Below, piece by piece: positions 30,159 through 34,508 of a stretch of 64,000 nt of DNA (positions are counted from its first letter, which is position 1; each line of letters begins with the position of its first letter). The position numbers and the translations under genes were made by a program. Origin of the DNA: Chloroflexota bacterium (GTDB lineage Bacteria > Chloroflexota > Dehalococcoidia > Bin125); assembly GCA_028875225.1 (NCBI GenBank), contig JAPPFB010000005.1, forward strand, positions 1-64,000, written 5' to 3'. A model generated the notes under the pieces. That model had not been told where the DNA came from. It made no database searches and saw only the letters and a list, made by a program, of their open reading frames with translations.

Positions 30159-31445
30159 TCAGCGATCGCGCAGCCGGTCGCTGGCCGCGCCCGATGCCAG
30201 CAGATTGGCGATCTGTTCTTCCGAGTATCCCAAGATGTCGCGGAGTACGGGAATCGTGTCGGCGGCGAAGAGTGGCCCCGCGCTCTTCGGCGGTGACGGA
30301 GTCTGCGACAGCCGGAACGCAGCCTGGGGCGCCGGCGACCACCCGACCTGTGGATGTGGGAGCCCGCCGACCGAGTGGCGCGCATGGACATGCTCGTCTC
30401 GCAACAGTGATCTCGCGCCCATCACCGGTGACGCCGGAACACCGGCGTCTTGCAGCCGGTTGGCCAGTACGACCGGATCCTGATCCGATGTAAACGAGCC
30501 CAGCAGGCAGTCAAGCTTGGACCGGTGCTTCCAACGTCTCAAGCCGGTCGCGAAACGACGGTCGCACGCGACCGAAGGATTGTCCCAGACTCGCAGCAGC
30601 GCATGCCATTCATCGTCGTCGCGGCAGGCGATCGCGATCCAGGAGTCGGGATCGTCAAGGAGCGGAGCGGCCGGATAGACGCCGTGCGGCGCCGCCGACG
30701 AGTGCTGATTGCCGATTCGCGTCGGTTCTCGCCCCGTGAGCTGTTGCCCAATGATGGCGTCTCCGATGAGCTGCAGCTCACCTTCCAGCATGGCCAGTTC
30801 AACCGCCTGCCCACCGACTCGATCCCGTGCGATCAGAGCCGCAACGGTCGACAGGGCGGCGCTCAGGCCGGCGTTCTGATCGCAATAGAAGTTTCCTGGC
30901 TTGAGCGGTGATCCGTCCGCGTAGCCCGTCAGCCAGGACATGCCGCTCATCGCGTCGATGCCCGGTCCATAGGAGATTCGGTCACGCCAGGGCCCCGACT
31001 TGCCGAAGGCGGGCATCGAGACGTGGATGATCTCAGGGTTGCGATCGCAAAGCGCATCCCATTCCAGTCCGAAGTTGCCCATCACGCGGGGCGAGTAGTT
31101 TTCGAGCACGACATCCGATCGCTCAACGAGATCGAGAAACACATCGCGCCCGGCCTCGGTCGTCAAGTTGAGGGCGATGGAACGTTTGCTGTGTGCCAGC
31201 TCGTTCTGGCGAGGTTCTCGGTTCCACGGTTCGTCCGGCCCTTCGCCGCGGTACGGCAGCGCTGACGCCGGGCTGCGAGGTTTGGCCCAGGGGGTCTCGA
31301 TTCGTAGCACTTCGGCGCCGAGCGCGCCCAACAGCGTGGTGGCGACGGGCCCCGCGACTGCCGTGGTCAGGTCAAGCACGCGTACGCCGTCGAGTGGACG
31401 ACAGTCGACCCGTGGATATGGATTGAGTCGAGCCTCAGGCAACAC
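30159..31445 (-). CDS. CaiB/BaiF family CoA-transferase
   Basis: PLDGVRVLDLTTAVAGPVATTLLGALGAEVLRIETP, NLTTEAGRDVFLDLVERSDVVLENYSP; GTG start inferred. Confidence 0.9.
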   Translation of the reverse strand: MLPEARLNPYPRVDCRPLDGVRVLDLTTAVAGPVATTLLGALGAEVLRIETPWAKPRSPASALPYRGEGPDEPWNREPRQNELAHSKRSIALNLTTEAGRDVFLDLVERSDVVLENYSPRVMGNFGLEWDALCDRNPEIIHVSMPAFGKSGPWRDRISYGPGIDAMSGMSWLTGYADGSPLKPGNFYCDQNAGLSAALSTVAALIARDRVGGQAVELAMLEGELQLIGDAIIGQQLTGREPTRIGNQHSSAAPHGVYPAAPLLDDPDSWIAIACRDDDEWHALLRVWDNPSVACDRRFATGLRRWKHRSKLDCLLGSFTSDQDPVVLANRLQDAGVPASPVMGARSLLRDEHVHARHSVGGLPHPQVGWSPAPQAAFRLSQTPSPPKSAGPLFAADTIPVLRDILGYSEEQIANLLASGAASDRLRDR

Positions 31446-32637
31446 CGGCGCGCCTCCACTGGACCCGTTGCTTCGGTGTGCCAAGCCGCCCATTGTGCTC
31501 ACCCAGTCGCGGCGCCACACCGTCAACCCATGCGGTTCGACCGAGTCGCAGCGCCGGACCGGGCGCGAGGACATCGCCGCCACGGGGATGGGGCGTCGTC
31601 TGCCAGAAGTCGCGTGCGGCATGATGACCGTCGTCATCGGCCAACACTTCGGACGGCGCCAGCACTTCGGTGAAGGGAATGCGGAGTTCCTGAGCACGAC
31701 GCACGATCTCGCGCCGAGGGGTCGCCGCCAGCACCGGTTCCATCAGCTCGTCCACCTCGTCTGCACGGCCCATCAGACTGGCCAACAGATCAGGCGCGGC
31801 CAATTGGGGCTGGTCAAAGAGGACCGCCATGGCCTCCGGATACCGGTTGTTGCAATGAGCGTGGACCCAGCCGTCCTGGCAGGGCCTGATCGTCGAGGGA
31901 TACAGGTGGCCCGGGCCGAAGCCGACCAGGCGAGCGCCGTTGCGAACCGGCTCGCGGTCGAAGAACCAGGCGTGCTGATGGCCGCCGCCGAGCAAGAACG
32001 CGACCGCCTCGAATATGGCGGTGTCGATCAGCTGGCCGCCGGCCTGGGCGTACAGCGCGGTGACAATGCCTAGCGCCGCATGCAGACCTGCCTGCATGTG
32101 TCCCTGCTCACCCCAGGCCTTGACCGGCTCGCGCTCTGGTTCCCCGCCAATCCGCAGGTATCCGCCGGCGGCGTACAGGGTCAACTCGGAACCGCGCCAA
32201 TCCGACCTGGGGCCTTCCGTGCCGAACGGCGTGATCGTGCAGACCTGAAGATCGGGATGCCGATCAATGACTGCTTCCGGTTGCAACCCGAGATCTTGCC
32301 AGCGACGCCGATCGACGTCGATGATGAGCACGTCGGCTTTTGACAGATGCTGGTCGAGCATTCTGCGACCAGCCCCGCTCGCGACATTCAAGCGAATCGA
32401 CTGCTTGTGCCGTTGTAGATGAAGATGGCTCGCTCCACCTTCGCGATCGGGGACGTCGGCGCGAAATGGACCGCTGCGCCGCATCGGGTGGCCCAATGGG
32501 GGTTCAATCAACGTCACACTGGCGCCCAGTCCGGCCAGTAGCCGCCCGCAGTATGCGCCGGCTGACGTCTCGGAACACTCAATCACCCGGACACCGTCCA
32601 GCGCGCCTGCGGCTTGATCCGGGTCTTGTTCAGTCAC
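31435..32637 (-). CDS. CaiB/BaiF family CoA-transferase (second copy)
   Basis: LDGVRVIECSETSAGAYCGRLLAGLGASVTLIEPPLGHPMRR, CTITPFGTEGPRSDWRGSEL; start inferred. Confidence 0.88.
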   Translation of the reverse strand: MTEQDPDQAAGALDGVRVIECSETSAGAYCGRLLAGLGASVTLIEPPLGHPMRRSGPFRADVPDREGGASHLHLQRHKQSIRLNVASGAGRRMLDQHLSKADVLIIDVDRRRWQDLGLQPEAVIDRHPDLQVCTITPFGTEGPRSDWRGSELTLYAAGGYLRIGGEPEREPVKAWGEQGHMQAGLHAALGIVTALYAQAGGQLIDTAIFEAVAFLLGGGHQHAWFFDREPVRNGARLVGFGPGHLYPSTIRPCQDGWVHAHCNNRYPEAMAVLFDQPQLAAPDLLASLMGRADEVDELMEPVLAATPRREIVRRAQELRIPFTEVLAPSEVLADDDGHHAARDFWQTTPHPRGGDVLAPGPALRLGRTAWVDGVAPRLGEHNGRLGTPKQRVQWRRAGVA

Positions 32638-32721
32638 CGAGGCAGGATACCGCTGAGTCGCCGTTAGGCTGCGCGGCAGGGTTTCGCCTCCGGTCAACCA
32701 GGAATCAAGCAGGAGTGGCAT

Positions 32722-33600
32722 ATGTCGGACGTGGGATTCATCGGCGTTGGCAAGATCGGCAATCCGATGTGCGCGAATGTGATCAAGGGCGGACACCGGG
32801 TCGTGGTTCACGATCTGGTCGAAGAACACGCGGCCAATCTGATCGAGCTGGGAGCGATCTGGGCCGAGTCGCCTGCGGCAGTCGCCTCTCAGTCGGAAGT
32901 GGTCCTGACGTCGCTGCCCGGTCCGCCCGAGGTGACCGCCGTCCTCCGCGGCGCGGACGGAATCCTGGAGGGCGCGGAACCGGGGCTGGTCTGCTTCGAC
33001 CTCTCCACCAACCTGCCGTCGACGGTCAAGATGCTGGCCGAGCGAGCCGCGGAACGCGGCGTGGTCTTTCACGACTCTCCGGTTTCCAACGGCGTCCAGG
33101 GAGCAATCGACGCGACGCTTGCCGTCATGGTTGGCGGCGATCAAGCGTCGTTTGAGAAGTACAGGCCGGTGCTCGAGTGCATCGGCAACAACGTCTTCCA
33201 CATGGGCGAACTGGGGATGGGCGCCCTGACGAAGATCACGAACAACATGGTCAGCATCAGCTCAATCCAGCTGCTCGTTGAGGCAACGGTGATCGCCGAG
33301 GCGGCCGGCCTTGACGCGCACAAGGCGTATGAGGTGATGAGCGTCGCTTCGGCCCAGAACTACGTGCAGAACATGCCGACGCTGCTCGAGCGCGAGTTCG
33401 ACGATCCGTCCTTCTTCCTCAAGTGGGCCGCCAAGGACGTTTCGCTCGCTGTGCAAGTGGCACGGGAGCAAGGAGTGCCCTCGCCGATGGCGTCGGCGGC
33501 CAGCGACATGCTCAACCGCGCCAAGAATCGCGGCTACGACCTGCTGTCTCCGATGGCCACGTTGCTCTCGGCCGAGGAGGACGCGGGAGTCTCACATTAG
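32722..33600 (+). CDS. NAD(P)-dependent beta-hydroxyacid dehydrogenase (3-hydroxyisobutyrate dehydrogenase-like)
   Basis: VGFIGVGKIGNPMCANVIKGGH, DSPVSNGVQGAIDATLAVMVGG, KITNNM. Confidence 0.92.
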   Translation: MSDVGFIGVGKIGNPMCANVIKGGHRVVVHDLVEEHAANLIELGAIWAESPAAVASQSEVVLTSLPGPPEVTAVLRGADGILEGAEPGLVCFDLSTNLPSTVKMLAERAAERGVVFHDSPVSNGVQGAIDATLAVMVGGDQASFEKYRPVLECIGNNVFHMGELGMGALTKITNNMVSISSIQLLVEATVIAEAAGLDAHKAYEVMSVASAQNYVQNMPTLLEREFDDPSFFLKWAAKDVSLAVQVAREQGVPSPMASAASDMLNRAKNRGYDLLSPMATLLSAEEDAGVSH

Positions 33601-33668
33601 TTCCGGCAGCGGCTCCGGCAGCAGTTCCGGCAGCCTCCTCGCGTTCAATCCTGGCGTACACTTACCAC

Positions 33669-34508
33669 ATGTCGATAGCCACGGGAACCGTCGGGGAGGG
33701 CCAGAACACCGCTCGACGAGTGGTATTCCTCCATGCGGCTGCGTTTGTGCTGGGATTCAGCGTGGTCTTCGTCGCGCTGGGCGCGCTGCTGGGGGCGCTC
33801 GGGTCCGCGTTCCAGAACGAACTGATCTGGTTTCAGCGCGTGGCCGGCGTGCTCCTGGTGATTCTTGGCCTGCATCTTGCCGAGGTCATCACGATCCCGC
33901 TGTTGTACCGCAGCTTCCAGGTCGGCGGACCGGGCGGATCATCGACGGCCGCGTCTGCGGCTGAACCGTCACGCGCTCGCGCAGCAGCCGACTACGGGCG
34001 ATCGCTCGTCGTTGGCGTCGCATTCTCCGTCGGTTGGACGCCGTGCGTAGGGCCGATACTCGCCGGCATCCTGGTGCTGGCACTCGACTCGGCGTCGCTC
34101 ATCCAGGCCATCATTCTGCTGATCTGCTACGCCGCCGGACTGGGAATCCCATTCCTGATCGTCGGCGCTACCTTTGGCGCCTCAACCCAATTCCTGCGCA
34201 AGTTGAATCGCTGGATGCCGCTGATCGGCGTCGTGTCGGGCGTTTTGCTGGTGTTCGTCGGAATGCTGATCGCCCTGGATCGAGTCGTCGTGCTCAACGA
34301 AGCGCTGGGCAGCTTCGGCGTCGATGTGCTCGCCGGTTCTGACGGATCCTCGACGCAGATGCTCGACCTCAATGCCGGTTCCGCGGCGATTGCATTCGCC
34401 GGCGGGTTCGTCAGTTTCATCAGCCCCTGCGTGTTGCCGCTCGTGCCCATCTACCTCGGCCATCTGGCCGGAATCGGTTCCGAGCAAGCATCGATCCGCG
34501 CTGCCTAA
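33669..34508 (+). CDS. CcdA/DsbD-type cytochrome c biogenesis membrane protein with apparently permuted topology
   Basis: FLHAAAFVLGFSVVFVALGA, GWTPCVGPILAGIL, and FVSFISPCVLPLVPIYLGHLAG near the C-terminus. Confidence 0.85.
   Translation: MSIATGTVGEGQNTARRVVFLHAAAFVLGFSVVFVALGALLGALGSAFQNELIWFQRVAGVLLVILGLHLAEVITIPLLYRSFQVGGPGGSSTAASAAEPSRARAAADYGRSLVVGVAFSVGWTPCVGPILAGILVLALDSASLIQAIILLICYAAGLGIPFLIVGATFGASTQFLRKLNRWMPLIGVVSGVLLVFVGMLIALDRVVVLNEALGSFGVDVLAGSDGSSTQMLDLNAGSAAIAFAGGFVSFISPCVLPLVPIYLGHLAGIGSEQASIRAA

Follow-up and report, generated by a model that had tools for sequence, protein, structure and literature searches.

A circularly permuted CcdA homologue in a family of Dehalococcoidia and its permuted relatives

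Results

The locus

The window analyzed here is a stretch of 64,000 nucleotides from a Chloroflexota bacterium of the class Dehalococcoidia (contig JAPPFB010000005.1). It contains an open reading frame for a CcdA homologue that starts with ATG, ends with TAA and is listed with its parts in Table 1. The gene before it ends at 33600. Read by eye, two successive ORFs on the reverse strand (30159-33201) resemble CaiB/BaiF-type CoA-transferases.

An earlier note on this DNA had described the protein as a circularly permuted CcdA that begins at the equivalent of TM2 and ends with the SPC helix, and both parts of this description hold. Three module HMMs (TM1, TM2-3 and TM4-6), which were run on the six-frame ORFs of every locus fetched, match the window ORF in the order TM2-3, TM4-6, TM1, with scores that, as sequence matches, are well beyond chance. 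The motif GWTPCVGPILA occupies residues 122-132, and SFISPCVLPLVP follows at residues 249-260. In a phmmer comparison with the solved CcdA (PDB 5VKV), query residues 240-269 align with chain residues 6-35, residues 20-71 with 40-91, and residues 113-210 with 114-207. As these blocks stand in rotated order, the window protein is a circular permutation of CcdA. The Pfam model PF02683 (DsbD_TM) recognizes the protein with 61.6 bits at a cut-off of 27.1, its match being split into two out-of-order stretches. The linear TM1-to-TM6 order with an N-terminal SPC helix is absent; going by its sequence, the protein is not a canonical CcdA in terms of order, but its homology to CcdA stands. None of the NCBIfam models that would fit reached its cut-off, and matches to TAL effectors in a sequence search of the PDB were discarded as noise due to repeat composition.

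Table 1. Features of the permuted ccdA gene, with positions in the window
Feature	Position	Strand	Basis
Permuted ccdA CDS (TM2-3-4-5-6-1)	33669..34508	+	279 aa; module HMMs, 5VKV alignment, 20/20 family genomes
TGGCGTACACT, extended -10-like box, probable leaderless promoter	33652..33662	+	7 nt before ATG; consensus match only
TM2-TM3 module, residues 16-85	33714..33923	+	module HMM 105 bits (locus L003); dN/dS 0.045
Variable cytoplasmic TM3/TM4 loop, residues 86-106	33924..33986	+	dN/dS 0.26; AF2 low confidence
TM4-TM6 module, residues 107-212	33987..34304	+	module HMM 168 bits; dN/dS 0.028
Cys126, active-site cysteine, GWTPC helix (TM4)	34044..34046	+	invariant in A2; motif in 68/68 permuted proteins
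TM6-TM1 linker, residues 213-239, predicted outside, acidic	34305..34385	+	charge count; length about that of canonical C-tail plus N-tail
TM1 module at C-terminus, residues 240-270	34386..34478	+	module HMM 75 bits; matches 5VKV residues 6-35
Cys254, active-site cysteine, SPCVLP helix (TM1)	34428..34430	+	invariant in A2; motif in 68/68 permuted proteins

The reading frame is open upstream to 33423, and other starts are possible, with an extension that is not conserved in relatives. In most members of the genus (L069-L079), a box of the type TGGCG-TACACT/TAGACT ends about 6-8 nt upstream of the ATG, in DNA that otherwise varies. The retention of this box at a fixed spot amid variable neighboring DNA makes it probable that translation begins at the ATG at 33669 of a leaderless message, and the consensus match suggests that transcription would start exactly at this ATG. 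The module HMMs detected no TM1-like ORF within 1 kb upstream, in keeping with the earlier statement that no copy of the first helix precedes the gene. A missed N-terminal helix, a frameshift and a longer two-domain homologue truncated in the window were all looked for, and none was found.

Conservation in the family

Among 60 relatives searched, 14 genomes of the same genus and a further 5 of the family each gave a single uninterrupted permuted match, with identities down to 58%. All 20 surveyed genomes of the family, which are independent assemblies, have the gene as one open frame in the order TM2-6-1, and their upstream sequences are unrelated. The records are Chloroflexota and Dehalococcoidia MAGs of different projects, and their contigs include SPAdes-style, megahit-style and very long ones (one of 1.29 Mb); from the isolate names, we read them as sponge or marine-type bacteria.

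The window gene is the only PF02683 gene in its genome, and a search of the genome with PF13386 gave no match. Across 13 sequences (the genus and one confamilial relative, L080), we estimated a dN/dS of 0.073 for the gene as a whole and of 0.028-0.045 for the helix modules; as dS is near saturation, these values are approximate. By this estimate, the gene is under strong purifying selection. The SPCxLP and WTPCxG contexts of the two cysteines are likewise kept in every permuted protein (Table 1).

Predicted fold and topology

AF2 modeling from 16 permuted proteins alone was useless (pLDDT 40.7), whereas addition of canonical fragments, with TM2-6 and TM1 as separate rows, gave a model with a mean pLDDT of 73.5 and a pTM of 0.68. 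The model has helices at residues 12-47, 49-70, 102-140, 144-171 and 173-202 and a broken helix at 234-251/258-278, that is, six transmembrane helices predicted with moderate confidence. Its best Foldseek match in the PDB is CcdA 5VKV (probability 1.00, E 0.014, TM 0.41/0.50, rmsd 8.6), in a sequential alignment in which the moved helix is not superposable. The poor superposition is due in part to the fact that the alignment has to follow sequence order. According to the positive-inside rule, the charge distribution predicts that the N- and C-termini are inside and the acidic linker is outside. From model and charges, we infer that the permutant would adopt the CcdA fold and have its two termini on the cytoplasmic side.

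Two permuted orders among relatives

Only three module orders were found at the fetched loci: the canonical one, TM2-6 followed by TM1 (CP1, the order of the window gene), and TM4-6, TM1, TM2-3 (CP2, a half swap to TM4-5-6-1-2-3). In a class-wide search of 294 genomes, reading of the loci confirmed 21 CP1 and 23 CP2 genomes, which we assign to Dehalococcoidia from the record titles. The phylum-wide search added CP1 genes in seven further families of Chloroflexota, including complete chromosomes and multi-copy cases. Homologues with the same order as the window gene, for which the earlier note had asked to search, occur in all surveyed genomes of its family, in other Chloroflexota families and, in one genome, in another phylum.

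Outside the Chloroflexota, 399 genomes were drawn around Petroclostridium (Bacillota), of which 180 had homologues. Among the loci fetched, one was CP1 (G757) and the others were canonical. The CP1 gene of G757 (L229 / L267) groups with Chloroflexota CP1 genes with support 100/95, and probably reflects transfer or a mis-binned contig. In the phylum around a deltaproteobacterial record (395 genomes), G1322 has a CP1 gene (L265), known from one assembly, that nests within the canonical genes of its own phylum (100/95) and is 60% identical to one of them (L264).

Genomes of group f90 have two or three CP1 ccdA copies (L211 and L212; L213-L215), and G589 has a CP1 copy (L209) as well as a canonical one (L228). 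In G757, a TlpA-like gene lies beside the CP1 ccdA on the opposite strand. A 715-aa protein (L226:1092-3236) combines a canonical CcdA with a C-terminal TlpA-like domain (WGTWCGPC). Long hydrophobic insertions between TM3 and TM4, probably extra helices, occur in canonical (L186, L187, L193) as well as CP1 proteins (L180, L181).

Origin of the permuted order

In permutants, the distance from the TM6 anchor to the SPC motif is 53-68 residues, compared with canonical medians of 32 for the C-tail and 20 for the N-tail. In the alignment of L265 with L264, the linker looks like the whole C-tail followed by the N-tail, and the L049/L155 junction alignment also counts for tandem fusion. Such a linker suggests that tandem copies were fused end to start and trimmed later. 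The earlier suggestion of tandem duplication and trimming is therefore favored as far as the linker is concerned, but no intermediate with 7 to 12 transmembrane helices accompanies it: among the loci examined with the module HMMs, there were no tandem pairs, four-module ORFs, 7- to 12-TM forms or split halves.

Tandem duplication, fusion and trimming is most likely the origin of the window permutant. Tandem ccdA copies would have fused in frame, and the fused gene would then have lost the front TM1 and the rear TM2-6. The former cytoplasmic connection between TM1 and TM2 would have provided the new termini, while a periplasmic linker would have taken the place of the old ones. Events of this kind would have recurred and would also have given the half-swapped order. 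Fission of ccdA into separate genes and their re-fusion in a different order is an unlikely alternative route. CcdA consists of two 3-TM repeats, according to PMC4608589, and each half might in principle form a gene of its own, with which the half swap in CP2 would be compatible. However, no split or half gene turned up among the loci examined, the CP1 break falls inside a repeat, and the linkers contain whole C- and N-tails.

For the trees, modules were put back in canonical order, concatenated and analyzed with IQ-TREE. In the 100-row tree, the order labels need 8 changes. The clade of the window gene was placed differently in the first and second trees, and we rely only on the AU tests, for which groups were named by module order independently of the tree, and on the starred branches. 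Neither the CP2 genes (p=1e-9) nor the CP1 genes (p=0.002) nor all permuted genes together (p=3e-9) are compatible with a single clade in the AU tests.

Circular permutation is further supported by pairs of relatives with different orders. In family f50, the CP2 gene of G087 and the canonical gene of G128 are 61-63% identical per half, with the halves swapped. The CP2 gene L029 and the canonical gene L085 are 54-62% identical over the halves, and in both cases an overlapping TlpA-like gene comes next (the two TlpA-like proteins are 42% identical). This common neighbor indicates that the gene pair persisted through the change in module order.

A single ancient permutation, with horizontal transfer and a return to the canonical order behind the mixed orders, would account for the finding that nearly all permuted genes found are in Chloroflexota, and G757 is evidence of transfer or of bin contamination. 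We regard this scenario as quite improbable. One clade is rejected for each permuted group and for their sum, L265 sits among the canonical genes of another phylum, and reversion would itself be another permutation. As the AU tests reject a single origin, each permutation appears to have arisen more than once, although transfer and reversion are not fully separable from repeated gain.

Discussion

Together, our data show that the window gene encodes a genuine natural permutant of CcdA, a thiol-electron transporter with six membrane helices, and that this permutant would very probably still be a working electron transporter. It most likely feeds the reduction of apocytochrome c or of other thiols. 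In this reading, the Cys126-Cys254 pair would receive electrons from cytoplasmic thioredoxin, move by the postulated TM1/TM4 elevator and then reduce outer thioredoxins of the TlpA/ResA type, mainly for the maturation of cytochrome c by System II. Genes for a CcsA-type protein, for ResB and for two TlpA-like thioredoxins that have a hydrophobic stretch at the N-terminus are present in the genome. In System II, CcsA-type, ResB and TlpA-like proteins are the users of CcdA electrons.

It is conceivable that the permuted protein has given up electron transport for a new role, for example as a LysE-type transporter of metals or small molecules. No thioredoxin partner adjoins the window gene, and the LysE transporter superfamily includes CcdA/DsbD, according to PMC4608589. 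Nevertheless, this reading is improbable. Both catalytic cysteines are invariant together with their contexts, the gene is the sole ccdA of a genome that also encodes ResB and CcsA-type proteins, and the CP2 gene L029 is in an operon with a TlpA-like gene. The idea that a frameshift, a missed N-terminal helix or a collapsed tandem repeat mimics permutation in a normal CcdA, which could be raised for any MAG sequence and for a frame that is open upstream, is already refuted by conservation, as the order is identical in 20/20 genomes of different assembly styles despite unrelated upstream DNA, no orphan TM1 is nearby and a promoter-like box immediately precedes the ATG.

On balance, we favor the view that a working electron transporter of the CcdA type tolerates permutation: it appears to have been opened at at least two cytoplasmic loops, several times independently, and to remain functional, as the sole copy in the family of the window genome. 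If this is true, the elevator motion would not require the TM1-TM2 and TM3-TM4 connections, and the tether of the mobile TM1 could lie on either side of the membrane. Permutants that cut different loops and tether TM1 on the opposite side are a natural test of which connections this motion needs. The open-access literature searched yielded no report of a natural permuted CcdA or DsbD core, and none of a natural permutation that recurs in any polytopic inner-membrane protein, so that the novelty of the permuted CcdA is provisional. Domain matches that are not ordered in family annotation conceal rearranged membrane proteins.

A review (PMC7329351) presents CcdA, from limited structural evidence, as the smallest elevator protein, in which TM1 and TM4 move together within an O-shaped scaffold. 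With the Thermus thermophilus CcdA (PDB 5VKV), the window protein has in common the six helices, the SPCVLPLVP and GWTPC motifs and the size. It differs in that TM1 is C-terminal, the termini are predicted inside instead of outside, and a new periplasmic linker joins TM6 to TM1. Compared with DsbD, it corresponds to the transmembrane domain (PF02683), without the periplasmic alpha or gamma domains. The LysE superfamily of 3+3 TMS transporters, in which CcdA/DsbD is a member with two 3-TMS repeats, is described in the portion of PMC4608589 used here with the tandem 1-3/4-6 order only and with extra N- or C-terminal helices; that portion does not mention permutation. A further parallel is provided by the CP2 proteins of Dehalococcoidia (e.g., L029 and L049), which, like the window protein, are natural permutants in which a fusion linker joins TM6 to TM1 and both cysteines are kept. 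They are opened at the TM3-TM4 loop, whereas the window protein is opened at the TM1-TM2 loop, and the tree suggests that the two have separate origins.
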